A stretch of 57,121 nucleotides of DNA, taken from the NCBI RefSeq assembly GCF_000337215.1, contig NZ_AOHZ01000107.1, positions 1 to 57,121 of the forward strand, given 5' to 3'. Both the position numbers and the translations under genes were made by a program. This document shows positions 35,902 to 53,311 of the stretch, in pieces. This stretch comes from Natronolimnohabitans innermongolicus JCM 12255 (lineage in GTDB: Archaea > Halobacteriota > Halobacteria > Halobacteriales > Natrialbaceae). The notes under the pieces are model-generated. The model searched no databases, was not told the origin of the DNA, and worked only from the letters and a program-made list of their open reading frames with translations. Each line of letters begins with the position of its first letter. Within the stretch, counting starts at the first letter, position 1.

Positions 35902-38118
35902 TCACTGCGTCGGCTCCCCGTTCGCCCGCGCCGCCTCGAGGTGTCGACGTTCGATCACCACTTCGTCGGCCTTCTCGTTCGCTTCGTCGGGCTCGTATCG
36001 ATCGGCGACCTCCCGAATCGCCTTCATCGAGGCCGTCCTGACGAGCGCCTCGAGGTCGGCTCCCGTGTACCCCTCGAGGTCGTCGGCCAGCTCCGCGATA
36101 TCGACCTCCTCAGAGAGCGGCTTCCCGCGGGTGTGGACCTCGAGGATCTTCTCGCGGGCCTCCCGGTCGGGTTCGCCGACGAGGACGTGCGTGTCGAGAC
36201 GGCCCGGTCGGAGCAGGGCGGGATCGATCTGGTCTTTGCGGTTGGTCGCGGCGAGGACGACCAGGTTGGGGTTCTCGCGCATCCCGTCGAGTTCGGTCAG
36301 CAACTGCGAGACGACGCGTTCGGTGACCTCGTGGCCGTCGCCGCGGGCGGCCGTGATCGCGTCGATCTCGTCGAAGAAGACGATCGACGGCGCGGCCTGG
36401 CGGGCGCGTTCGAACACCTCGCGGATCGCCTTCTCGCTCTCGCCGACGTAGCGGTCGACGATCTCGGGGCCGTCGACGCGGACGAAGTTGACGTCGGTCT
36501 CGCCTGCGAGCGCGCGTGCGAGAAGCGTTTTCCCGGTTCCCGGCGGCCCGTACAGCAGAACGCCCGAAGGGGGCTCGGTGTTGGTTTCCTCGAACAGTCG
36601 ATCGTAGGTCAGCGGCCACTCGACCGATTCCCGGAGGACCTGTTTCGCGTCCTCGAGGCCGCCGACGTTCGAGAAGTCGGTGCTCGGCGACTCGGCGACG
36701 TACTCGCGCATCGCCGACGGCTCGACGGCGGCCAGCGCCTCGTCGAAGTGATGCTTTTCGACCGTCGGCTCCTGGTTCCACTCCGCGCGGTCGTCCGCGT
36801 CGGTCGGCCGGTCGCGGATCGCGGCCATCGCGGCCTCGCTGACGACCGAATCGAGGTCGGCGCCGACGAAGCCGTGAGTTCGCCGGGCGATCGTCTCGGC
36901 GCTGACGTCGTCGGCCAGCGGCGTGCCGCGGGTGTGGACCTCGAGGATCTCCTTTCGGCCCTCCGCGTCGGGGACGCCGATCTGGATCTCGCGGTCGAAG
37001 CGGCCGCCGCGGCGCAACGCGGGATCGATCGTATCGACGCGGTTCGTCGCGCCGATGACGATCACTTCGCCGCGGGCGTCGAGGCCGTCCATCAGGGTCA
37101 GCAACTGGCCGACGATCCGGTTTTCGGCGTCGCCGTCGTCGTCGCGCTGGCCCGCGATGGAGTCGATCTCGTCGAAGAAGATGATCGTCGGCGCGTTCGC
37201 CTCGGCCGTCTCGAACACCTCGCGAAGCCGCTCTTCGGACTCGCCTTTGTACTTCGACATGATCTCCGGGCCGGAGATCGTCTCGAAGTTGGCGTCGACC
37301 TCGTTGGCGACCGCGCGAGCGATCAGCGTCTTCCCGGTTCCCGGCGGCCCGTACAGCAGGACTCCGGCCGGCGGGTCGATCCCGAGGCGCTGGAACAGTT
37401 CCGGCTCCGACAGCGGCAGTTCGATCATCTCGCGGACGAGCTCGAGTTCCTCGTCCAGACCGCCGATGTCCTCGTAGGTAACCCCGGAGGCAGGCTCCGG
37501 ATCGGCACTCTGGCTCGGCTCCGTGGTCGTGTCGTTGCTCGAGCGCTGAGCGTTCGAGCGCTCGTCGCTCGCTCCGCCAGAACCGCTGCGTGCGGTCTCG
37601 AGTTCGCCGCCGGTGACTCGAACTGTGGTCGTGCTCGTGATGCGGACGTCGCCGGCGGGGTCGGTGTCGGTGACCTTGAACGGCTCCTGGCCGAGTCCCT
37701 CGATCCGGATCTGCTCGCCGGCCCGAACCGGCCGGTTCCGGAGCGTCTTGGCGGCCTCGCGCTCGGCGGTGCTCCGATCCGTTCCGGCGGCCGACGGCGG
37801 CGCGGACAGCGTGACGCGGTCGGCCTCGGCGATGGTCGACGTGTCCTTCGTTCGGACGGTGACCGTGTCGCCGACGTGAGCGCCCGCGTTCGCGCGCGTA
37901 TCGCCGTCGATCTGCACGGCGTTTTCCGGCACCGACGGATCCGCGGGCCACATCTTCGCGACCGTTCGCCGCTCGCCCTCGATGACGACGGTGTCGCCGC
38001 TCAACACGCCGAGCTGTCGGCGCGCGAGCTCCGGTATCCGCGCGACCCCGCGTCCAGCGTCCCGCTTTTCGGCGGCCCGAACCGTCAGCGAGACGCCGTT
38101 CGAGTCCGATTCGCTCAT
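35902..38118 (-). CDS. Cdc48/VAT-type AAA+ unfoldase
   Basis: A 738-residue two-ring ATPase. The N-terminal double-psi barrel and swivel domain (1-175, KMWPADPSVPENAVQIDG) precede a Ser/Asp linker (about 175-212). D1 has Walker A GPPGTGKT (257-264) and Walker B DEID (316-319). D2 has GPPGTGKT (524-531) and DEID, each with second-region arginines. Archaeal VAT unfolds tagged proteins and feeds the proteasome or works in quality control. It starts about 95 bases from the stop of the HTH regulator on its right. Confidence 0.95.
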   Translation of the reverse strand: MSESDSNGVSLTVRAAEKRDAGRGVARIPELARRQLGVLSGDTVVIEGERRTVAKMWPADPSVPENAVQIDGDTRANAGAHVGDTVTVRTKDTSTIAEADRVTLSAPPSAAGTDRSTAEREAAKTLRNRPVRAGEQIRIEGLGQEPFKVTDTDPAGDVRITSTTTVRVTGGELETARSGSGGASDERSNAQRSSNDTTTEPSQSADPEPASGVTYEDIGGLDEELELVREMIELPLSEPELFQRLGIDPPAGVLLYGPPGTGKTLIARAVANEVDANFETISGPEIMSKYKGESEERLREVFETAEANAPTIIFFDEIDSIAGQRDDDGDAENRIVGQLLTLMDGLDARGEVIVIGATNRVDTIDPALRRGGRFDREIQIGVPDAEGRKEILEVHTRGTPLADDVSAETIARRTHGFVGADLDSVVSEAAMAAIRDRPTDADDRAEWNQEPTVEKHHFDEALAAVEPSAMREYVAESPSTDFSNVGGLEDAKQVLRESVEWPLTYDRLFEETNTEPPSGVLLYGPPGTGKTLLARALAGETDVNFVRVDGPEIVDRYVGESEKAIREVFERARQAAPSIVFFDEIDAITAARGDGHEVTERVVSQLLTELDGMRENPNLVVLAATNRKDQIDPALLRPGRLDTHVLVGEPDREAREKILEVHTRGKPLSEEVDIAELADDLEGYTGADLEALVRTASMKAIREVADRYEPDEANEKADEVVIERRHLEAARANGEPTQ

Positions 38119-38211
38119 GGGATTCCTTTCGGCCGCGGTACCTTGAGAATTGTCCTCGACGCGACCGTTTGCGCCCGTTCGAAGTTGTCCGCCGACGAGG
38201 ACCTCCTCTCG

Positions 38212-38847
38212 TTACAGCGCGTTCCCGAGCAGCCGATCGATCCCTCGACGGAGTCGCTCGGAGGTCGACGGTCCCGAGATGCCGAGTCGCCGTCCCACCT
38301 CGTCGGTCGACGCTTCCCGCGGAACCGCGAAGTACCCCATCTCGCGGGCGACCGATAGCGCCTTGTACTGCTCGCGGGTGAGCCCGAACGGCGGATCGTC
38401 GGCCGACGACTCCCGGGTGAGTCGCTCGAGGTGGAAGTTCGCACCGCGGTCCGCACAGAACTCGCGATACTCCGCGAGCGCCTCGCGGTCGGGAAACCGG
38501 GCGCGACCCCACCAGCCGTCGACGGTGACGATTCCGCCGAGCGGCGTCGTTCCGAGTTCGACGAACTTCCGGTAGATCGGCACCGGCGGATCCCGCAGTT
38601 CGATCCGATACAGCGAGCCCCCGTCCGTCTCGTCGAGCGTCGTCGCGCCGGCGACCGTCCCGTCGGCCGCCAGCGCGTCCCGAAACTCGCCGTCCGCGCC
38701 GTCGACGACGCGACAGAGCACGACCGGCCGATCGGGATCGATCACGAGAATCCGCTCGATATAGACCGTAACCTCCGGAACGGCCGAAACGGCGTCCGTC
38801 AGCGGCAACTCGAGCGACGTCACTCTGTACTCCGCGATGAGCCCCAT
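38212..38847 (-). CDS. Bat-type HTH-10 regulator
   Basis: A 211-residue protein. Residues 1-150 form the small-molecule-sensor-like N-terminal region of short Bat-type regulators (EYRVTSLELPLTDAVSAVPE at the start). Residues about 155-208 form the HTH-10 domain (LTREQYKALSVAREMGYFAV, then VGRRLGISGPSTSERLRRGI). No kinase or receiver. It is divergent from the R2-like gene at 38928, with about 80 bases between start codons that include a TATA-like tactgtagtagataca. Confidence 0.87.
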   Translation of the reverse strand: MGLIAEYRVTSLELPLTDAVSAVPEVTVYIERILVIDPDRPVVLCRVVDGADGEFRDALAADGTVAGATTLDETDGGSLYRIELRDPPVPIYRKFVELGTTPLGGIVTVDGWWGRARFPDREALAEYREFCADRGANFHLERLTRESSADDPPFGLTREQYKALSVAREMGYFAVPREASTDEVGRRLGISGPSTSERLRRGIDRLLGNAL

Positions 38848-38927
38848 GTGCCCGTCGTTCGTCGGGGAAACTTAAACACCCTACTGTAGTAGATACAAAT
38901 TCATCGGAAATCCGGCGCTACCTACGA

Positions 38928-39836
38928 GTGTCAATGGCAACCGAGAGCGACCCCGCGATGCAACTGGACACGTCGATCCGGTCACACAACTACTACCGAA
39001 ACGCCGTCAAAAAACACTGGGACCCCCACGAAATCGACCTCGAGGCCGACCGCGAGGGGATCGCGGAGCTGCCGGAGCCGGCCTTCGAGGCGCTCAAAGA
39101 ATCCCTCGCGCTGTTCGGCGCCGGCGAGGAGTCGGTGACCGAGGACCTCGCGCCGCTTGCGGTCGTCCTCGAGGATATCGACGACCAGATGTTCCTCACG
39201 ACGCAGCTCTACGAGGAGTCCAAACACACGGACTTCTTCGACCGCTACTGGCGCGAGGTCGTCCACGCGGAGGAGGAACGTCGCGGACAGGCGCTCTCGT
39301 CGCCGACCGACGACCGCTGGTTCAACGACGCCTACGACGAACTCTTCGAGCGCAACGAGCGAGCGATGGCCCGCTTGCTCGAGGCGGATACGCCGGAGAA
39401 CCGCGCGAAGGCCCACTGTCACTACCACCTGACGATCGAGGGAATCCTGGCCCAGACGGGTTACTACGGACTCACGCTCGCCTACGGCGAGAACGAGCCC
39501 GAACTGCCCGACCTGCCGGGACTCGTCGAGGGGCTGAAACTCGTCCGCAGCGACGAGGGTCGCCACGTCGGCTTCGGCATGGCGAAGCTCAAGTCGCTCG
39601 TGAGCGACGGCGACGTCGAGCCCGACCTGCTCCGCGAGACGGTCGGCGAACTCGTCCCGCTGGTCCAGGACAGTCTGGTCAGCGACGACGGCGCGACGTC
39701 CGACTCGGGGCCCGGCCCCAGCCCGTCGCAGCTGTCGGAGTACGCCTACACCAAACACGAACAGCGGATGCAACAGATCACCTCGGCGAGCGAGAATATT
39801 CCGGACGTCGAGGAGCTGACCGAACTCGAGGCCTGA
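38928..39836 (+). CDS. R2-like di-metal ferritin-superfamily protein
   Basis: A 302-residue protein related to the ribonucleotide reductase small subunit; Met3 (38934) is an alternative start. The carboxylate-bridged metal site is visible as Glu97-x-x-His100 in YEESKH, a Glu in LTIEGILAQTGYYG and the second ExxH in SDEGRHVGFG. No large-subunit gene is next to it, and the layout fits R2-like ligand-binding oxidases, which use Mn/Fe, at least as well as a true reductase subunit. The substrate is unknown. Control by the divergent Bat-type gene is plausible. Confidence 0.82.
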   Translation: MSMATESDPAMQLDTSIRSHNYYRNAVKKHWDPHEIDLEADREGIAELPEPAFEALKESLALFGAGEESVTEDLAPLAVVLEDIDDQMFLTTQLYEESKHTDFFDRYWREVVHAEEERRGQALSSPTDDRWFNDAYDELFERNERAMARLLEADTPENRAKAHCHYHLTIEGILAQTGYYGLTLAYGENEPELPDLPGLVEGLKLVRSDEGRHVGFGMAKLKSLVSDGDVEPDLLRETVGELVPLVQDSLVSDDGATSDSGPGPSPSQLSEYAYTKHEQRMQQITSASENIPDVEELTELEA

Positions 39837-43586: not shown

Positions 43587-43979
43587 TCAGTAAGACCGTA
43601 CTTCGAGGCTGTCGATACGCCCAAAGTGCTTGGTGTTTCTAGTGATAACCGGTTCGTCGTTGAGCAGCGCAGTCGCGGCGATGATACAGTCTTCTCGCTC
43701 GATCCGTTCACCGTCGTTGATCAGCCCACCGGAGAGTTTTCCGGCTTTTCGCATCACGGTGTGGTCGGCGCTCACGACGTGTTTCGTTTCCAGTATCTCG
43801 AGGATTCGGTCTCGCTTCGTATCCGGCGTCTGAGACCGAGAAACGCCCTCGTAGAGTTCCAAGACCGTCACGGAGGACACTTTCTGTGGTCGTGCTTCCT
43901 TTTCAATGATATCGAGAAATTGTTTCGCGTCTTCATCGCCTCGAAGTAAATCGATAATGAACGACGAGTCCTGAATCAT
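43587..43979 (-). CDS. vapC: VapC-type PIN-domain toxin
   Basis: A 130-residue PIN protein. Acidic site residues: Asp3 in MIQDSSFIIDLL, Glu42-region in VTVLELYEGVSR, and Asp97 in REDCIIAATALL; the later position is in ITRNTKHFGRI. It should be an RNase of the VapC class. The start overlaps the antitoxin stop by four bases (43976-43979). The stop directly touches the aroQ remnant at 43548-43586. Confidence 0.9.
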   Translation of the reverse strand: MIQDSSFIIDLLRGDEDAKQFLDIIEKEARPQKVSSVTVLELYEGVSRSQTPDTKRDRILEILETKHVVSADHTVMRKAGKLSGGLINDGERIEREDCIIAATALLNDEPVITRNTKHFGRIDSLEVRSY

Positions 43980-44236
43980 TCCGACATCTCGTCGTCTATG
44001 GCTTCGTCTAACTCCGCTGTGAGGCGGTCACTCCGGTCTCTGGACTTCGTTCGACCGTCATCGATAGCGGCCTCGAGGTCTGCCGCCTCGTCCTCGGAGA
44101 GAATTCCTGTAACCTCGTTCCACGACCGTTCTCCAGCAAGGCGCTTGACGGTTTCACTGAAGCTTTCCCCCTCTTTCTTTCGGGCTTTCAGCCGCTCGTA
44201 GGCTTCCTCGTCGAGTGAAATCGTTTTCGTCGCCAT
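43976..44236 (-). CDS. vapB: VapB antitoxin (UPF0330-like)
   Basis: An 86-residue protein from ATG 44236. The start TKTISLDEEAYERLKARKKE and SFSETVKRL follow the archaeal VapB family pattern (ribbon-helix-helix-like N-terminus). A toxin-binding acidic/basic tail follows (ILSEDEAADLEAAIDDGRTK). It is coupled to vapC by a 4-base overlap. A promoter-like AT-rich stretch lies upstream at 44240-44300. Confidence 0.87.
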   Translation of the reverse strand: MATKTISLDEEAYERLKARKKEGESFSETVKRLAGERSWNEVTGILSEDEAADLEAAIDDGRTKSRDRSDRLTAELDEAIDDEMSE

Positions 44237-44359
44237 CGTAGTACACAGTACTACATGCACGCTTAAAAATACTGGTGCAAAGCCCATTCCGGATTGGCTC
44301 GGTGCAACGTAGCGAAAAACCGCCAAAATACACGAAATAGTGTAACGTGAGCTAGAGAC

Positions 44360-44391
44360 CTAACGAAGTAGAGATGCGTGAGAACCGGTAG
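44360..44391 (+). repeat. aroQ 3'-end remnant, copy 3
   Basis: The frame reads NEVEMRENR then TAG, against NKVEQRENR then TAG in copy 2 and NKVEQRDSR then TAG in aroQ. It has the same strand and the same stop. It ends 18 bases before the ancestral stop of the second PIN toxin (44410). Confidence 0.65.
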
Positions 44392-44426
44392 CACGAGATA
44401 GAGATATTGTCATTCATCAGCCGGTT

Positions 44427-44792
44427 CTAGCGGCACTCGTTCACCTTGATGTCTTTGTAATCTTTCTCCGATGAGAGTACGTTCAGCGTCCGTGTTTCTG
44501 CAGTCGCGGCGTGGAACGCATCGAACGCTGTCATTCCCTCGTCGTAGTAGTTGACAGCCTTCAGAACGATTTGTCGTTCTTCCTCGTCCCGGACAGGGAC
44601 GAGTTCGAGCAGATTTGCCACGAGTGGGACGTACTCGAACTCGTACCGTTCTCGGGCGAGAAGGAGTTCGAGATAGGAGAAGGCCGACGTTTCTACGTCG
44701 TACTCGTCGAGTGCTTCTTCTGCTGATTGCTGCAACCAGTCTGAGTCTTTGGCGAGCGCGAGTAAAAAGTCGGTTTCGACGTAGACCGTCAT
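44427..44792 (-). CDS. PIN-domain toxin with frameshifted C-terminus
   Basis: A 121-residue PIN protein (MTVYVETDFLLALAKDSDWL at the start, FSYLELLLARERY, DEGMTAFDAFHAAT, NVLSSEKDYKDI). The last residues read KVNECR and stop. Shifting the frame by one base near 44446 gives GERVPLEPADE with a stop at 44410, which looks like the proper family C-terminus. The frame is therefore broken only at the very end. The toxin may still fold, but the tail is altered. It is coupled by a 4-base overlap to the AbrB-like antitoxin. Confidence 0.8.
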   Translation of the reverse strand: MTVYVETDFLLALAKDSDWLQQSAEEALDEYDVETSAFSYLELLLARERYEFEYVPLVANLLELVPVRDEEERQIVLKAVNYYDEGMTAFDAFHAATAETRTLNVLSSEKDYKDIKVNECR

Positions 44793-45034
44793 CTATCGTC
44801 CCCGTTCTCGCGGGCCTCAGCTTTCGCTTCTGCTTCGATGTCCGCGCGAATATCGTCGACGGATGCGTCACGTAACTCGCCTGCCGCTTCGCGGACTGCA
44901 GCGAGCGGGTCGTCTGCAACCGGAACGAGTTCAATTCTGTCCTCGTACGTGACGATGTGGTACTTCTCCCCGTATTTTTCTCGTACGTCTTTGGGGATGT
45001 ACAACCTCCCCTGCCCGTCCGTTTCTGCTGACAT
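44789..45034 (-). CDS. AbrB/SpoVT-type antitoxin
   Basis: An 81-residue protein from ATG 45034. The N-terminal swapped-hairpin DNA-binding domain has TDGQGRLYIPKDVREKYG and YEDRIELVPV. The C-terminal acidic helix (REAAGELRDASVDDIRADIE) should mask the PIN toxin. It overlaps the toxin gene by four bases. The spacer at 45035-45130 contains its promoter. Confidence 0.87.
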   Translation of the reverse strand: MSAETDGQGRLYIPKDVREKYGEKYHIVTYEDRIELVPVADDPLAAVREAAGELRDASVDDIRADIEAEAKAEARENGDDR

Positions 45035-46917: not shown

Positions 46918-48381
46918 TTACGCCTCTTTCGACGCCACGGTCTCCTGCCGACGCTCGAGCGTGATCGAGTCGGACTCGAGGACGGCCTCCGTTCGTTCGT
47001 AGCTGGGCGCTTGCTCGAGCGTCTCGTAGTTGTTGTAGCGGGTCGACGTGTAGGCGTCGTACGCGTCGGATTCGAAGGACTCTCGCAAGTCGAGACAGTG
47101 GTCGCGAATCGTTCGCTCGGGCTCGAATCCGAGTTCCGTCTCGATCTTGTCGAACTCGACGCGATAGCTTCGCTCGTCGGTCTGGTCGTCGTGGTACTCG
47201 ATCGTCGCCTCGGGATAGCAGTCGGCGACGACGGTCGCGAGTTCGTCGATTCGGTAGTTCTGTTCGTTCGAGCCGACGTTGAAGACGGTATCGCCGACGT
47301 CTTGGATCGGCGCGGTGAGACAGTCGACGTACGCGCGGGCGGCGTCGGCGACGTGGACGTTCGGTCGGTACTGGTCGCCGCCGAATACGGGAATGACGCC
47401 TTCGGTGTAGGCTTTCGCCGGGAGGATGTTTCCGACGAGATCGAACCGCATGCGCGGCGACTCGCCGTAGATCGTCGCCATTCGCAGGATCGTCGGCGAG
47501 AACTGCTCGTCGGCGAGGTCGTGAAGGACGCGTTCGGACTGGATCTTCAGCCGCGCGTACAGCGAGACGGGGTTCAGTTCGGCGTCTTCGTCGAGGCGCC
47601 GGTCGTCGTCCGGAGAGCGCCCGTAGACGCTACACGTCGAGGCGAAGACGAATCGATTGATGCCGTGGTACTTGCACAGCGACGCCAGCAGCTGGGTCGA
47701 GTGGAGGTTGTACTCGAGGGTCTTCTCCGGATCGAGTTCGGAGGCGGGATCGCCGACGATGCCGCCGAGATGGACGACGGCGTCGACGCCGGCGATCGCA
47801 TCGAGGACCGTACTGACCGAGCGCGCGTCGCCGCGGTGCAGCGAAAACCGGTCGGTTTCGGTCAGATCGGAAACACCGGCGGCACCGTAGAAGAGCGGAT
47901 CGAGAACGCGAACGCCGAACCCCGCGTCCAGCAGCTGTCGACAGAGGACCGAGCCCAGATAGCCCGCGCCGCCGACGACGAGTACGGTTTCGTCGCTCGC
48001 CGACCTCTCGACGGTGCTCGCCGTGGTGTTGGTCAGGTCGACGGTCGTGACGTCGGTAACCGTTCCGTCCTCGTCGAGGACGGGTGCGACAACCGTCTCG
48101 GAGTCGCCGTCCTCGTCCTCGAGGACGGTCGCTGCACCGTCGACGGTGCGAATCGAGCCGCTCGCGTCGACGACGACTGGGTCCTCTTCGATGACGGCCG
48201 AGAGCGGGGTCTCGGGCGTATCACCGTCGAACAACGTCTCTTTCAGTCGTCTGCTCGTTGCGATTCCAACGAGCTGGTCTTCGTCGTCGACGACAACGAT
48301 TCCTCGGGAGTCAGCGCGGTCGATTCGAGCGATTGCGTTCCGAATCGAAAGTCCCGCATCGGCTGTAACTGGCCATCTCAT
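46918..48381 (-). CDS. CBS-domain/NAD-dependent sugar epimerase fusion
   Basis: A 487-residue protein. Residues 1-115 are a CBS-pair-like regulatory module (GIVVVDDEDQLVGIATSRRL, then VVDASGSIRTVDG). Residues 132-440 form an extended SDR epimerase/dehydratase: GGAGYLG at 137-143 (NAD site), Ser248/Thr249 and the catalytic Tyr275-x3-Lys279 pair in LYARLKIQ. SDR enzymes of this type interconvert nucleotide sugars. The CBS part suggests control by an adenine nucleotide. It lies in a region of glycan genes (two DegT aminotransferases, deacetylase, WbqC). Confidence 0.88.
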   Translation of the reverse strand: MRWPVTADAGLSIRNAIARIDRADSRGIVVVDDEDQLVGIATSRRLKETLFDGDTPETPLSAVIEEDPVVVDASGSIRTVDGAATVLEDEDGDSETVVAPVLDEDGTVTDVTTVDLTNTTASTVERSASDETVLVVGGAGYLGSVLCRQLLDAGFGVRVLDPLFYGAAGVSDLTETDRFSLHRGDARSVSTVLDAIAGVDAVVHLGGIVGDPASELDPEKTLEYNLHSTQLLASLCKYHGINRFVFASTCSVYGRSPDDDRRLDEDAELNPVSLYARLKIQSERVLHDLADEQFSPTILRMATIYGESPRMRFDLVGNILPAKAYTEGVIPVFGGDQYRPNVHVADAARAYVDCLTAPIQDVGDTVFNVGSNEQNYRIDELATVVADCYPEATIEYHDDQTDERSYRVEFDKIETELGFEPERTIRDHCLDLRESFESDAYDAYTSTRYNNYETLEQAPSYERTEAVLESDSITLERRQETVASKEA

Positions 48382-48584: not shown

Positions 48585-49724
48585 CTATCGTCCACGCTCG
48601 AGTCCGGCGCCGACGGCCGTGACGATCCGATCGATCTCGTCTCCTCGGAGATCCGGATGAATCGGAAGCGAGAGCACTCGACCGGCGATCTCTTCGGTTA
48701 CGGGGACCGTTCCGGGCTCGTAGTCGTACGCGTCGCGGTAGCTTTCGGTCAGGTGAACGCCCGGCTCCCAGTAGACCTTCGATGCGATCTCGCGGTCCGC
48801 TAGGGTCTCGATAACGGCGTCTCGATCGATATCTTCCCCCAGGGTAACCGTGTACAGCTGGTAGACGTGTCGGCCGCGGCCGGCGGCCGTGTGCGGTTCG
48901 ACGCCGTCGAACCCGGCGAGTCCGTCGGACAGTTGCGACGCGACGCGGCGTCGGTTCGCGATGTGGTCTTCGACTTTCTCGAGTTGCGCACAGCCGATGC
49001 TCGCGATCAGGTCCGGCATGCGGACGTTGGTCCCGACGTCGACGTACTCGCCGCTGCCGCTCGAACTGAAGTACTCGTCGGAGGCGCGGCCGTGCGACCG
49101 GAACTGCTCGAGTCGGCGCGCGAGGTCGTCGTCGTCGGTGACGACGGCGCCGCCCTCGCCGGTCGGAAGGACCTTGTTCTGACAGAAGCTGAGCGCCGCC
49201 GAATCGCCGATCGTACCGAGCGTTCGCCCCTCGTAGTCGGCCCCGAACGCTTCGGCGGCGTCTTCGATCAGCGGGACGTCCGCCTCGGCGGCGATTTCGG
49301 CGAGCGGGCCGATATCACAGGCCGCGCCGTAGGGGTGGATCGGGAGGATCGCCGCCGTGTCGTCGGTGACCTTCGTCGCAACGTCGTCCGGATCGAGGCC
49401 GTACGTCTCGCGTTCGATATCCGCGAAGACTGGATCGGCGCCGACGAGTCGAACGGCGTTGGCTGTCGCGATGAACGTAAACGCGGGGACGATCACTTCG
49501 TCGCCCTCGTCGATACCGTGGGCCGTCAACGCGGCGACTAAGGCCGTCGTTCCCGAGTTGACCGTCACGGCGTGGTCGACGCCGAGATACGACTCGAGTC
49601 CGCGCTCGAACTCGTCGATGTACGGCCCGTTCGCCCAGTACGACCCTCTGGTGATCGAATCGACGGCGTTCGCCACGTCGTTCTCGTCCCACGGTATTTC
49701 GAACAACGGGATCTCGTTACTCAT
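48585..49724 (-). CDS. DegT/DnrJ-family PLP aminotransferase
   Basis: A 379-residue protein from ATG 49724 (start MSNEIPLFEIPWDENDVANA). Family motifs: VNSGTTALVAAL (55-66), IVPAFTFIATANA, the acidic pair in LIEDAAEAFGA (152-162) and the PLP lysine Lys184 in CQNKVLPTGEGG. It should aminate a keto sugar nucleotide for surface glycans. It sits upstream of the CBS-SDR gene on the same strand with a 200-base gap, so the two may act in succession. Confidence 0.91.
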   Translation of the reverse strand: MSNEIPLFEIPWDENDVANAVDSITRGSYWANGPYIDEFERGLESYLGVDHAVTVNSGTTALVAALTAHGIDEGDEVIVPAFTFIATANAVRLVGADPVFADIERETYGLDPDDVATKVTDDTAAILPIHPYGAACDIGPLAEIAAEADVPLIEDAAEAFGADYEGRTLGTIGDSAALSFCQNKVLPTGEGGAVVTDDDDLARRLEQFRSHGRASDEYFSSSGSGEYVDVGTNVRMPDLIASIGCAQLEKVEDHIANRRRVASQLSDGLAGFDGVEPHTAAGRGRHVYQLYTVTLGEDIDRDAVIETLADREIASKVYWEPGVHLTESYRDAYDYEPGTVPVTEEIAGRVLSLPIHPDLRGDEIDRIVTAVGAGLERGR

Positions 49725-49916: not shown

Positions 49917-50336
49917 CTACAGTTTCGGTGCAGGAACGACGACGACCGGCACCGGTGTGTCCGCGGCCAGCGCTCGAGCGGTCGAGCCCAGCTGAGATTC
50001 CGTGGTGTCGTCCGAGTCGGCCGAAACGGACGGGTCGCCGTCTTGAGGCGTTACCAGGAGTTCGTCGGCGCCGACCGCAGTCGCCACGTCGCGGAGGACG
50101 TCGGCCGGCTCGGCGTCGGTTTCCCGAAGCTCCGTCTCGACCCGTCCGACCGCGGCCAGCCTGACCGGCGCGACGTTGAGCGCCTCCTGTGCGTCCCGTC
50201 GTTCGGGTCCCGCCGCATCGGTCGCCGACACGACGGCGACGACCGTAACGGTATCGTCGGCTGTCGCCCGCTCGTCGAGGTAGTCACAGATCGCTGCCGT
50301 CGTATGGACGGAGGTCGCGCCGGCGAGGTAGTGCAT
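49917..50336 (-). CDS. Universal stress protein (UspA) family protein
   Basis: A 139-residue protein with an alpha/beta UspA-like layout: DTVTVVAVVSATDA early, DVLRDVATAVGADELLVTPQ in the middle and GSTARALAADTPVPVVVVPA at the end. The last segment corresponds to the usual nucleotide-binding G-x9-G(S/T) region in reduced form, so ATP binding is uncertain. It lies between the two DegT aminotransferase genes, on their strand. Confidence 0.8.
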   Translation of the reverse strand: MHYLAGATSVHTTAAICDYLDERATADDTVTVVAVVSATDAAGPERRDAQEALNVAPVRLAAVGRVETELRETDAEPADVLRDVATAVGADELLVTPQDGDPSVSADSDDTTESQLGSTARALAADTPVPVVVVPAPKL

Positions 50337-50499: not shown

Positions 50500-51657
50500 T
50501 CACCGATTCGCGGTCGCCGTTTCCATCTCTCGTATCGCTGCGTCTACTCGTTCGCCGATGTATTTCGCGTCTTCGACCGAGAGATCCCTGTGGATCGGCA
50601 GACAGATGTGGCGGCCCATCGCCGACTCCGCGTTCGGCGCGACGCCGTCGGTGTCGTACCGATCGGTGACGAACGGCTGGCGATGTAACGGCGGGTCGTA
50701 CGCCCAGTCGATCGGTATTCCGTCCTCGCGGAGGCGATCCCGGATCCGAGGCCGGTTCCGTCCGTTCTCGAGTGCGAGGGGATACCGCCAGTAACTCGAT
50801 CGAACGTTCGCCGGAGGCGACACGGGGCGGACGCGTTCCCGGTCGGCGAGGTCGGAGAGGACGTCGTCGTACACGTCGGCGAGATCGTTGCGGTGAGCGA
50901 CGAATTCGTCGACGTGGGGTAGCTGGCTCCGACCGAGCACGGCCGCCATTTCGGACAGCCTGTAGTTGCTGCCGACGAATTCGAAGCGCGAATCGTCCGT
51001 CGCCGGATCGAGACCGCGGTTTCGGATCGCCGCCGCTTCCCTGGCGAACTCCCGGTCGTCGGTCAGGATCATCCCGCCTTCGCCGGCCGTCATCACTTTC
51101 GTCGCGTAGAACGAGAAACACGCCACGTGACCGATGCTCCCGGCGGGTTTCCCGTCGATCCTGGCGCCGTGTGCGTGCGAGCAGTCCTCGATCAGGACGG
51201 CGTCGTGCTCCTCGCAGAGGTCCCGCAGTTCCGCCGTTCGGTTACAGACGTTGCCGGCGAAGTGGACGACGACGACGGCGGCGGTGTCGTCGCTGATCCG
51301 CTCTCGGACCGACTCGACCGAGACGTTGTGGTCGTGGGGTTCGATGTCCGCAAACCGGAGTTCGCCGCCGGTCGACAGCACCGACGTCGCGTTCGCGGCG
51401 AACGTCTGAACCGGGACGATTACGTCCTCGCCGCGAACGTCGAGCGTCCGGAAGACCGTCTCGAGCGCCGACGTACACGAGTTCGTCACGATACCGTGCT
51501 CGCGACCGACGTACGCGGCGAACTCGCGCTCGAAGGCGTCACAGTGGTCGCCCATCGTCAGATTCGTCTCGCCGTCGAGCATTCGCTCGATCTCCGTCAG
51601 CACCCACGCCTTTTCGGGGAACGCGCCGCCCGTCGCGATGTCGTACGCTTCCGTCAT
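50500..51657 (-). CDS. DegT/DnrJ-family PLP aminotransferase
   Basis: A 385-residue protein. TNSCTSALETVFRTL (58-72), VPVQTFAANATSV, LIEDCSHAHGA (155-165) and the PLP lysine Lys187 in FYATKVMTAGEGG place it in the same family as 48585-49724, but it is a separate subgroup by sequence. Its start overlaps the deacetylase stop by four bases (51654-51657), making it the third gene of a WbqC / deacetylase / aminotransferase operon. Substrate unknown, probably a nucleotide keto sugar. Confidence 0.91.
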   Translation of the reverse strand: MTEAYDIATGGAFPEKAWVLTEIERMLDGETNLTMGDHCDAFEREFAAYVGREHGIVTNSCTSALETVFRTLDVRGEDVIVPVQTFAANATSVLSTGGELRFADIEPHDHNVSVESVRERISDDTAAVVVVHFAGNVCNRTAELRDLCEEHDAVLIEDCSHAHGARIDGKPAGSIGHVACFSFYATKVMTAGEGGMILTDDREFAREAAAIRNRGLDPATDDSRFEFVGSNYRLSEMAAVLGRSQLPHVDEFVAHRNDLADVYDDVLSDLADRERVRPVSPPANVRSSYWRYPLALENGRNRPRIRDRLREDGIPIDWAYDPPLHRQPFVTDRYDTDGVAPNAESAMGRHICLPIHRDLSVEDAKYIGERVDAAIREMETATANR

Positions 51658-52526
51658 GGTCGCTCACTCGTAGGTATTCGTCGGCGTTCTGGCTCACCAG
51701 CGGTTCTCGAAGCGCGGATCGAATCGGCGTCCCAGTCTCTCGCCGACGCCCTCACGTACGGTTCGGCTTTCGGATAGATCGTGACCAGTTCGTCGATCAT
51801 TTCGTCGGTGAGTCGGTCGTACTCGGAGACGCGTTCGACGTATCGGACGATCGGTGGTTCGTGACTCAGCCCCCACCAGATCGGATGTGTTAGCACCTGT
51901 ACGGTGGACGGATCGGTGAGCCCGTCGATCGATCCGATCGGCGGTCCCTCTCGCCATCGACCGCCGGAATCGGAGATGTACGTCGACATCAGCTCGCGAC
52001 CGTAGGCGTTTACGAGCCCCGCGATCGACGACGGTCCCTCGAGCACTCGATCCGTCGGCAGGTGAAACGATACCGACGCTATCGGACCGATACCGAGCGA
52101 TTCGAGCCGCCGGCGTGCCCGGCGAATTCGCATCCGCTGGCGCTCGAGGTCCACGTCATCGCTCCCGTCTTCGCTCTCTCCGTACTCGTGAGCGTAGTGC
52201 AGGCCGATCTCGTGTCCCATCGCTTCGATCGTCCGCAACGCCTCCGCGTTCGCTTCGACGTCGTACAGCGGCGAATCCGGAATCACCATGTACGTCGACC
52301 GAACGCCGAGTTCGCGTTCGAACCGGGCCAGTTCGACCGCACGGTCGAGACAGACGTCGACGTCGTGGCGGAGCAACGCCAGGGGTTGCGTCCGACTTGC
52401 CGTACGGAACGCCGACAGCGGCCGCACGTCGAATCGGGCCTCGAGCGTCTCGATGAGGGTTCGGTAGTACTCGTAACTAAAATCGCCGGACCAGCCTCCG
52501 AGGGCCGGTTCTTCGACGGTCGTCAT
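51654..52526 (-). CDS. Polysaccharide deacetylase-like protein
   Basis: A 290-residue protein from ATG 52526 (start MTTVEEPALGGWSGDFSYEY). The NodB-type metal motif is seen as LLRHDVDVCLDRA (51-63), and the following HEIGLHYAHE (105-114) supplies the His pair. It may remove an acetyl or related group from a glycan. It is tightly coupled on both sides (4-base overlaps with the WbqC gene upstream and the DegT gene downstream), so all three probably work on the same glycan. Confidence 0.85.
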   Translation of the reverse strand: MTTVEEPALGGWSGDFSYEYYRTLIETLEARFDVRPLSAFRTASRTQPLALLRHDVDVCLDRAVELARFERELGVRSTYMVIPDSPLYDVEANAEALRTIEAMGHEIGLHYAHEYGESEDGSDDVDLERQRMRIRRARRRLESLGIGPIASVSFHLPTDRVLEGPSSIAGLVNAYGRELMSTYISDSGGRWREGPPIGSIDGLTDPSTVQVLTHPIWWGLSHEPPIVRYVERVSEYDRLTDEMIDELVTIYPKAEPYVRASARDWDADSIRASRTAGEPERRRIPTSERP

Positions 52527-53311
52527 CGGCTCGCACCCCTTCGAAGTAACTCGACGGTCCCGTCCGCACCGACGTTGAACAGGGCGTCGACGATCGACAG
52601 ATCGCGGACGAACTCGTCGAAACACTGCTCGTATCGTGGTGTGGTGTACGACTGGTACTCGAGGGCGACCTCAGCCGCCTCGAACGTCGACGGCGTCAGG
52701 TACGACCGTGCGCCCGCGCCGGAGAGATACCGGTCTGCACCGAGTTCGGTGCAGATGTCGACCACACGATCGGTTTTCGTGCTTTCGATACCCATCTCCG
52801 AGGAGCGGACGAACGTACACTCGAGTTCGAGCCGAGCGGCGAGTTCACAGATCAAGTGGATGTTCAACTCGGCGATCGAGTGCCACTGTTCGTCGTAGGT
52901 CCGTTCGAACAACTCCTCGAAGGCGTCGTGATACGGGGCGTTCGCGTAGTTGTACGTGAGATTCTTCAGATGGTTCTTCCGCCAACGTTGGTCGGTCGCA
53001 ATTTGGACGTCCCGAATCTCGTCGCTCGAACCGCTGACCGGAACGGTGAGCCACGTCCAGCCGTCCGGGGTCTTTATTCGGTTACGGTTCGTGAAGGAAT
53101 TCGCCGAGTACTCGACGTCGTCGAGGAACACGAAGACGTCGCTTCGGAGAATCTTCTCGAAGTATCCGAGCCAGGGAAGGTAGTTCGGTTGATGAACTGC
53201 GACGACGAACTCGTCTTCGTCGTCGGACGTCGTCTCGATGGCCGTCGGATCGACCGTCTCCGAGTTGACCCCACGATCCCGAGTCATCCCTTCTTCCACC
53301 AGTTCTGTCAT
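52523..53311 (-). CDS. WbqC-family glycan biosynthesis protein
   Basis: A 262-residue protein. After an acidic N-terminal extension (about 1-33) the family opening VAVHQPNYLPWLGYFEKILR is unmistakable, followed by DVFVFLDDVEYSANSF and NRNRIKTPDGWTWLTVP. The later YLSGAGARSYL segment is also typical. WbqC-like proteins are found in O-antigen and other sugar clusters and are thought to modify sugars, but the reaction is unsettled. First gene of the overlapping three-gene operon; its promoter lies right of 53311. Confidence 0.92.
   Translation of the reverse strand: MTELVEEGMTRDRGVNSETVDPTAIETTSDDEDEFVVAVHQPNYLPWLGYFEKILRSDVFVFLDDVEYSANSFTNRNRIKTPDGWTWLTVPVSGSSDEIRDVQIATDQRWRKNHLKNLTYNYANAPYHDAFEELFERTYDEQWHSIAELNIHLICELAARLELECTFVRSSEMGIESTKTDRVVDICTELGADRYLSGAGARSYLTPSTFEAAEVALEYQSYTTPRYEQCFDEFVRDLSIVDALFNVGADGTVELLRRGASR

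Follow-up and report, generated by a model that had tools for sequence, protein, structure and literature searches.

The protein encoded at positions 46918–48381 (−) of a 57,121-nucleotide stretch of Natronolimnohabitans innermongolicus JCM 12255 DNA (contig NZ_AOHZ01000107.1, hereafter the window) is a fusion of a CBS-derived domain with an extended short-chain dehydrogenase/reductase (SDR); the ligand-site motif of its CBS region has been lost, the two halves of that region differ in selection, and its relatives with an intact CBS pair lie among nonulosonic acid genes. The reaction, ligand, feedback and loss of gating that we infer from these observations make up the following explanation, which is held at roughly even confidence: the SDR and a DegT-family enzyme would form an amino-sugar module, and the attached CBS pair would be of a nonulosonic acid type, serving as a feedback sensor in the intact relatives and decaying, with the enzyme left ungated, in the window's clade.

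The open reading frame spans exactly 46918–48381 (−), begins with ATG and encodes 487 amino acids; the contig is part of a 4.59-Mb genome that is 99.78% complete. The extended SDR core (residues 130–440; 47062–47994, −), supported by Pfam, profile and fold matches, is well predicted, with pLDDT blocks mostly of 80–98, and shows the three characters of an extended SDR: the Epimerase profile PF01370 (141.9 bits, residues 133–370; cut-off 20.9), GxxGxxG and YxxxK. The NAD-binding GGAGYLG (residues 137–143; 47953–47973, −) is invariant in nine aligned rows at all positions except 142, and the Ser/Thr catalytic segment STCSVYG (residues 248–254; 47620–47640, −) and the catalytic pair Y275xxxK279 (47545–47559, −) are invariant throughout nine aligned rows. 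The catalytic segment is without the Asp-Glu that marks 4,6-dehydratases. The protein scores 119.8 bits against the GalE equivalog TIGR01179 (cut-off 262.3) and 66.6 bits against the LegB 4,6-dehydratase model TIGR04180 (cut-off 475), to which four intact members score 76–98 bits. The nearest SDR is Cj1427 (6vo6, 6vo8), at 198 bits by profile and with a fold TM-score to the target of 0.89–0.94, followed by UDP-GlcNAc and UDP-glucose 4-epimerases. A CBS-type module is thus joined directly to a sugar-nucleotide SDR with Tyr and Lys in place, as an earlier sequence-only reading had proposed; its term "epimerase" does not name the nearest match, which is a C4-dehydrogenase, although 4-epimerases come close behind.

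The DegT/DnrJ/EryC1/StrS aminotransferase gene directly upstream of the SDR (48585–49724, −), whose longer frame 48585–49871 matches PF01041 at 385.5 bits, is a conserved partner, which agrees with the mention of nearby DegT enzymes in that reading: in 21 of 25 loci, two of which are repeat records of a plasmid or contig already counted, the SDR gene has a DegT gene immediately upstream on the same strand. The exceptions are G398, where it is further off, G056, where the SDR is truncated and DegT is missing, and two CBS-less loci, where it lies downstream. The nearest PDB structure to the partner is perosamine synthetase, a C4 aminotransferase. DegT enzymes release α-ketoglutarate from glutamate, so the SDR–DegT pair could be redox-neutral; to judge from sequence relationships, the two enzymes probably form a two-step amino-sugar module. 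Cj1427 itself is described as an NAD-dependent enzyme that oxidises C4 of GDP-heptose in an assay supplied with α-ketoglutarate (PMC10680097).

Several further genes surround the module. A UspA-like gene (49917–50336, −) scores 21.9 bits against a 24-bit cut-off, and its relatives are found near the DegT–SDR pair in 15 of 25 loci. Between this gene and small regulator genes, a block at 50500–53311 (−) encodes a second DegT enzyme, a DUF2334-like protein (below cut-off) and a WbqC protein; among the 25 loci compared, supplemented by WbqC and DUF2334 queries, the block occurs in the window alone. Adjoining the module (43587–45034, −) are a PIN-domain gene and further small genes that group with PIN genes and antitoxin genes of the VapB/AbrB type from other loci; H. 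alkaliphila has similar pairs on that side. In G056, where the locus is otherwise conserved, the SDR gene (L074:9972–10697, −) is a decayed copy, cut short at its N-terminal side.

In the window protein, the CBS family PF00571 is matched at 22.7 bits over residues 4–49, below the 24-bit gathering cut-off and as a single stretch, so that a second CBS is not reported by Pfam; the same family is matched by all six intact relatives with E values up to 0.001 (31.4 bits for the first member). A profile built from the CBS pairs of these six relatives matched the window N-terminus at 56.6 bits (best domain 56.3, residues 8–122), whereas none of 1,040 letter shuffles of the 26 clade N-termini scored above 16.5; a chance match is thereby rejected. 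The clade N-termini score 20.1–79.9 bits per sequence, several of them matching in the first module alone, and profile–profile comparison (hhalign) of the intact and degenerate CBS groups gave a probability of 99.4. The N-terminus was poorly modelled (mean pLDDT 48.8 when modelled alone, with just two sequences covering the region), and a Foldseek search with this model returned a best E value of 0.019, with none of 247 matches below 0.001; the best Z recorded for the fold was 5.1. The best 50 of the 247 are CBS-bearing as far as can be judged from titles and general background, several titles giving no domain name, and AcuB with AMP, ADP, ATP or Ap4A heads these weak matches; with such E values from such a model, the structure agrees with a CBS fold and gives no proof of it. 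The N-terminus (residues ~8–122) is derived from a CBS pair in which CBS1 (residues 4–65; 48187–48372, −) is recognisable and CBS2 (residues 66–122; 48016–48186, −) is a degraded remnant. The expectation that the first 115 residues are of CBS type was therefore confirmed by profile, and the "CBS pair" stands for its first half.

The CBS1 ligand site typically carries S/T-x-x-D. The sequence TDGDIR is present in all six aligned intact relatives, and in G746 and G771, which were added later, yet the CBS regions of the six are just 30–41% identical to the first aligned row. At the TDGD position, the window protein has T42-S43-R44-R45 (48247–48258, −), in which Arg replaces the motif Asp; its CBS2 still shows TTVD. 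The Asp is absent from all 26 window-clade members read (24 Arg, 2 Gln). The locus L019 (G026) does not enter the counts for motif, selection and N-terminal profile but is included in the tree, NeuB and CTP_transf_3 counts; its CBS region (contig C54) contains an odd stretch with X that resembles an adapter or assembly artefact. The truncated G056 gene (L035/L074) was excluded from all six of these counts, and a second partial copy in G073 lies outside them.

Pooled over nine close pairs, dN/dS was 0.40 for CBS1 (CI 0.27–0.57), indicating purifying selection, and near-neutral at 0.69 for CBS2 with the linker (residues 66–128; CI 0.51–0.93), compared with 0.12 for the SDR (0.10–0.14) and 0.25 for the C-terminal tail (0.18–0.36), single-pair values being widely spread; the corresponding numbers of gap codons were 0, 37, 1 and 3. 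In the intact pair G242/G245, the CBS-region values were 0.31 and 0.41 against 0.14 for the SDR; raised CBS dN/dS is therefore not peculiar to the degenerate clade, and the loss of the motif and the CBS2 indels are the clearer signs of decay. The near-fixed Arg is compatible with a changed role as well as with decay, and CBS1 may have been re-purposed in the window's clade, the Arg serving a new ligand (such as polyphosphate or an acidic sugar nucleotide) or a protein contact. The prevalence of this Arg, the upper bound of 0.57 on CBS1 dN/dS with no gap codon in nine pairs, and the conserved start of the clade proteins (M and W in all 26, R in 24 of them) speak for such a role, but CBS2, which forms the other half of the sites of a CBS pair, is drifting, with parts of it missing from several members, and re-purposing is considered rather unlikely.

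The survey of CBS–SDR architectures that had been suggested along with the first reading was performed on genomes, plasmids and viral contigs. Among 125 genomes of the family, 27 carry the window-type fusion (the window's counted), G015 has a more distant SDR, and the SDR of G056 is truncated. A query with nothing but the CBS part of G015 matched 16 of 391 class genomes, five of them from two other families. The full-length alignment matched 34 of 392 order genomes at E ≤ 1e-100, with 26 CBS-SDRs, which added G746 and G771, and eight CBS-less SDRs. It matched 35 of 392 phylum genomes at E ≤ 1e-60, and all of these matches except the window's own start at profile position 120 or beyond, with no other CBS-bearing match, in a search that a highly divergent CBS would escape and with the longer frames G171 (820 aa) and G139 (415 aa) outside the reading. 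Among the 40 records listed of 97 plasmid records matched by an intact member, the bacterial ones begin at residue 97 or later. For viral contigs (62 loci), no match begins before residue 100; 25 stretches of the 62 were checked, stops occur in L140 and L147, and 19 of the remaining 23 were used, L142, L162, L166 and L200 being left out. One viral-contig SDR (L139:2830–3804, +) is 46% identical to the SDR part of the window protein, and the upstream stretch of its own frame is without CBS. A scan of genome contigs gave one relative, L037. The fusion thus appears to be limited to Halobacteriales among the genomes searched, forming one clade, and no paper on this architecture was found in the open-access literature searched.

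In the SDR tree, the 35 CBS-SDR rows group together (100/99) with 14 CBS-less relatives outside, some of these on long branches, and the 27 degenerate rows form one clade (100/100) nested among the intact rows; the simplest history would be that CBS was acquired once and the motif lost once. The degenerate clade comprises 27 genomes of Natrialbaceae. A close copy is present in six plasmid records, one of 891 kb and five of 162–212 kb, the latter including Haloterrigena turkmenica pHTUR04 and a Natronorubrum daqingense plasmid. The contig bearing the gene measures 150–250 kb in 13 of the 27 genomes and exceeds 2 Mb in nine, so the gene is by no means always plasmid-borne. The window contig is presumably a plasmid, given the backbone genes it shares; those common to the named plasmids lie at 35902–39836 and encode a CDC48-like AAA ATPase, a BAT/HTH_10 regulator and a ribonucleotide-reductase-like small chain.

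All eight intact genomes contain NeuB, 0.2–17.2 kb from the CBS-SDR, and a CMP-sugar synthetase (CTP_transf_3, >70 bits), 0.03–8.5 kb away. By comparison, NeuB occurs in one of 27 degenerate genomes, in one of six haloarchaeal genomes whose orthologue is CBS-less, and in 50 of the 293 genomes of the order, two of these 50 matches being weak or partial. CTP_transf_3 above 70 bits is likewise found in 1/27 degenerate and 1/6 CBS-less genomes, with weaker matches of at most 31.6 bits in several other genomes, some of them above the family cut-off in degenerate genomes. Neither NeuB nor CTP_transf_3 gave a match in the window's genome. One draft genome, G091 (7% contamination), combines a degenerate CBS with NeuB and a strong CMP-sugar-synthetase match, on another contig. 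Since the degenerate rows form one clade, the link between motif loss and absence of NeuB amounts to one correlated change, not many, and its strength is exaggerated by the p value of a Fisher test. Pooled around the intact members are NeuB, CTP_transf_3, GlmS, a nucleotidyltransferase with hexapeptides, a NeuC-type epimerase, a formyltransferase, a methyltransferase and oxidoreductases, no single locus having the full set. This pooled set is that expected for legionaminic-type nonulosonic acids (cf. PMC6137143, PMC4481668). Queried with Azospirillum LegB, the window's genome and the eight intact ones gave SDRs of 28–39% identity and no clear LegB.

The relationships of the CBS pair itself point to the same class of pathway. 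When the CBS region of G242 was compared with 72,556 plasmid records (E ≤ 1e-3), four matches were obtained, all of them CBS-nucleotidyltransferases in legionaminic-type clusters. In two of the clusters, the annotation names LegB, LegC, NeuC, NeuB and a cytidylyltransferase; a third has the same genes under looser names, its cytidylyltransferase identified by tblastn; and the fourth, from Ensifer, is unannotated there, its genes being identified by tblastn alone. In the reverse direction, with the CBS half of the nucleotidyltransferase as query, the top-scoring CBS in all eight intact genomes was that of the CBS-SDR (28.6–64.4 bits). These eight genomes show no CBS-nucleotidyltransferase fusion, the catalytic half matching frames from residue 125 on (from 89 in one frame of G255), which suggests that the sensor has shifted to a different pathway enzyme. 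By profile, the solved CBS pairs nearest the intact members are those of the arabinose-5-phosphate isomerases 3k2v, 3fna and 4o9k. Arabinose-5-phosphate isomerase is an enzyme of the route to CMP-Kdo, a CMP-ulosonate, and 4o9k is a complex, with a ligand that we take to be CMP-Kdo. The proximity of intact CBS-SDRs to NeuB and CMP-sugar synthetase, together with the nearness of their CBS to the legionaminic CBS-nucleotidyltransferases, suggests feedback by a CMP-nonulosonate end product rather than energy sensing in the intact relatives.

Energy sensing had been the regulatory proposal of the sequence-only reading, in which the CBS pair binds AMP, ADP or ATP and couples sugar synthesis to the energy state. 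Many CBS pairs do bind adenylates, and adenylate-bound AcuB heads the weak fold matches, but in the window protein the motif Asp has become Arg and CBS2 is nearly unconstrained, and in the intact members the gene context and the nearest CBS relatives favour a CMP-ulosonate; the occurrence of one CBS type on two unrelated catalytic domains also argues for a pathway metabolite over energy charge. Adenine-nucleotide gating is accordingly judged improbable, while regulation of a glycan step remains plausible for the intact relatives. It is a little harder still to credit that the domain serves only assembly or solubility in every member, its nonulosonic link reflecting hitch-hiking with pathway genes: the single fusion clade means that context and domain were inherited together, but TDGDIR is kept in six of six intact relatives despite their low CBS-region identity, and bacterial clusters of this kind carry the same CBS type on another enzyme. 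That the N-terminus is untranslated, with the true start internal and just before the SDR, is scarcely credible: in its favour, few parts of the protein are less conserved and chance extension of open frames is frequent in GC-rich haloarchaeal DNA, but ATG followed by RW or KW stands at the same place without internal stops in 26 of 26 members (starts being picked by that pattern), and CBS1 is under purifying selection.

The reading preferred here, a nonulosonic-type sensor that has decayed in the window's clade, would operate as follows. The window SDR would oxidise a sugar nucleotide, probably at C4 as in Cj1427, as the first step, and the adjoining DegT enzyme would aminate the resulting keto sugar. 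In the intact relatives, the most likely role of the CBS pair is to throttle the SDR by binding the CMP-activated end product. In the window's clade, the SDR–DegT module would have left the nonulosonic acid pathway, its copies now residing on plasmids or chromosomes; the motif Asp would then have been lost and the CBS pair begun to decay, CBS1 being kept as a structural part while CBS2 drifts. With the Asp lost and CBS2 drifting, the window enzyme is probably no longer gated.

Among known systems, Cj1427 is without CBS, is 26–27% identical to the window SDR and differs in its catalytic segment. The legionaminic acid pathway of Halorubrum sp. PV6 (LegB/LegC) is a haloarchaeal cluster with SDR, DegT, NeuB, NeuA and a possible formyltransferase, like the intact loci; its LegB, unlike the CBS-SDR, is a predicted 4,6-dehydratase, and the main text makes no mention of CBS domains (PMC6137143). 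The window's genome differs from that pathway in being without a NeuB or CTP_transf_3 match. The arabinose-5-phosphate isomerase KdsD/KpsF has, among solved structures, the CBS pair nearest that of the intact members, but carries it on a SIS domain, not an SDR; two CBS domains are described for KdsD (PMC10448790). Another counterpart is the CBS-nucleotidyltransferase of legionaminic acid clusters, which has the same N-terminal CBS type (the intact profile scores the four plasmid examples at 68–74 bits, best domain) on an NTP_transferase catalytic half, the corresponding half of the CBS-SDR being an SDR. These plasmid proteins are presumably PtmE. In the relevant passages of two sources, PtmE is listed in legionaminic-type clusters without mention of CBS (PMC7371886, PMC4481668). 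Tentatively, and with somewhat less than even confidence, the pair may be regarded as a movable cassette sensing CMP-nonulosonates, carried by the nucleotidyltransferase in bacterial legionaminic clusters and re-attached to the SDR in haloarchaea for feedback at a different early step; it would have lost its ligand site and be decaying where the SDR–DegT pair left the pathway, leaving a naturally "disconnected" enzyme. The presence of one sensor type on two unrelated catalytic domains of such clusters allows the role of the CBS pair of the legionaminic enzyme to be tested, with the window's clade as a natural loss-of-site control for the idea of a pathway sensor.
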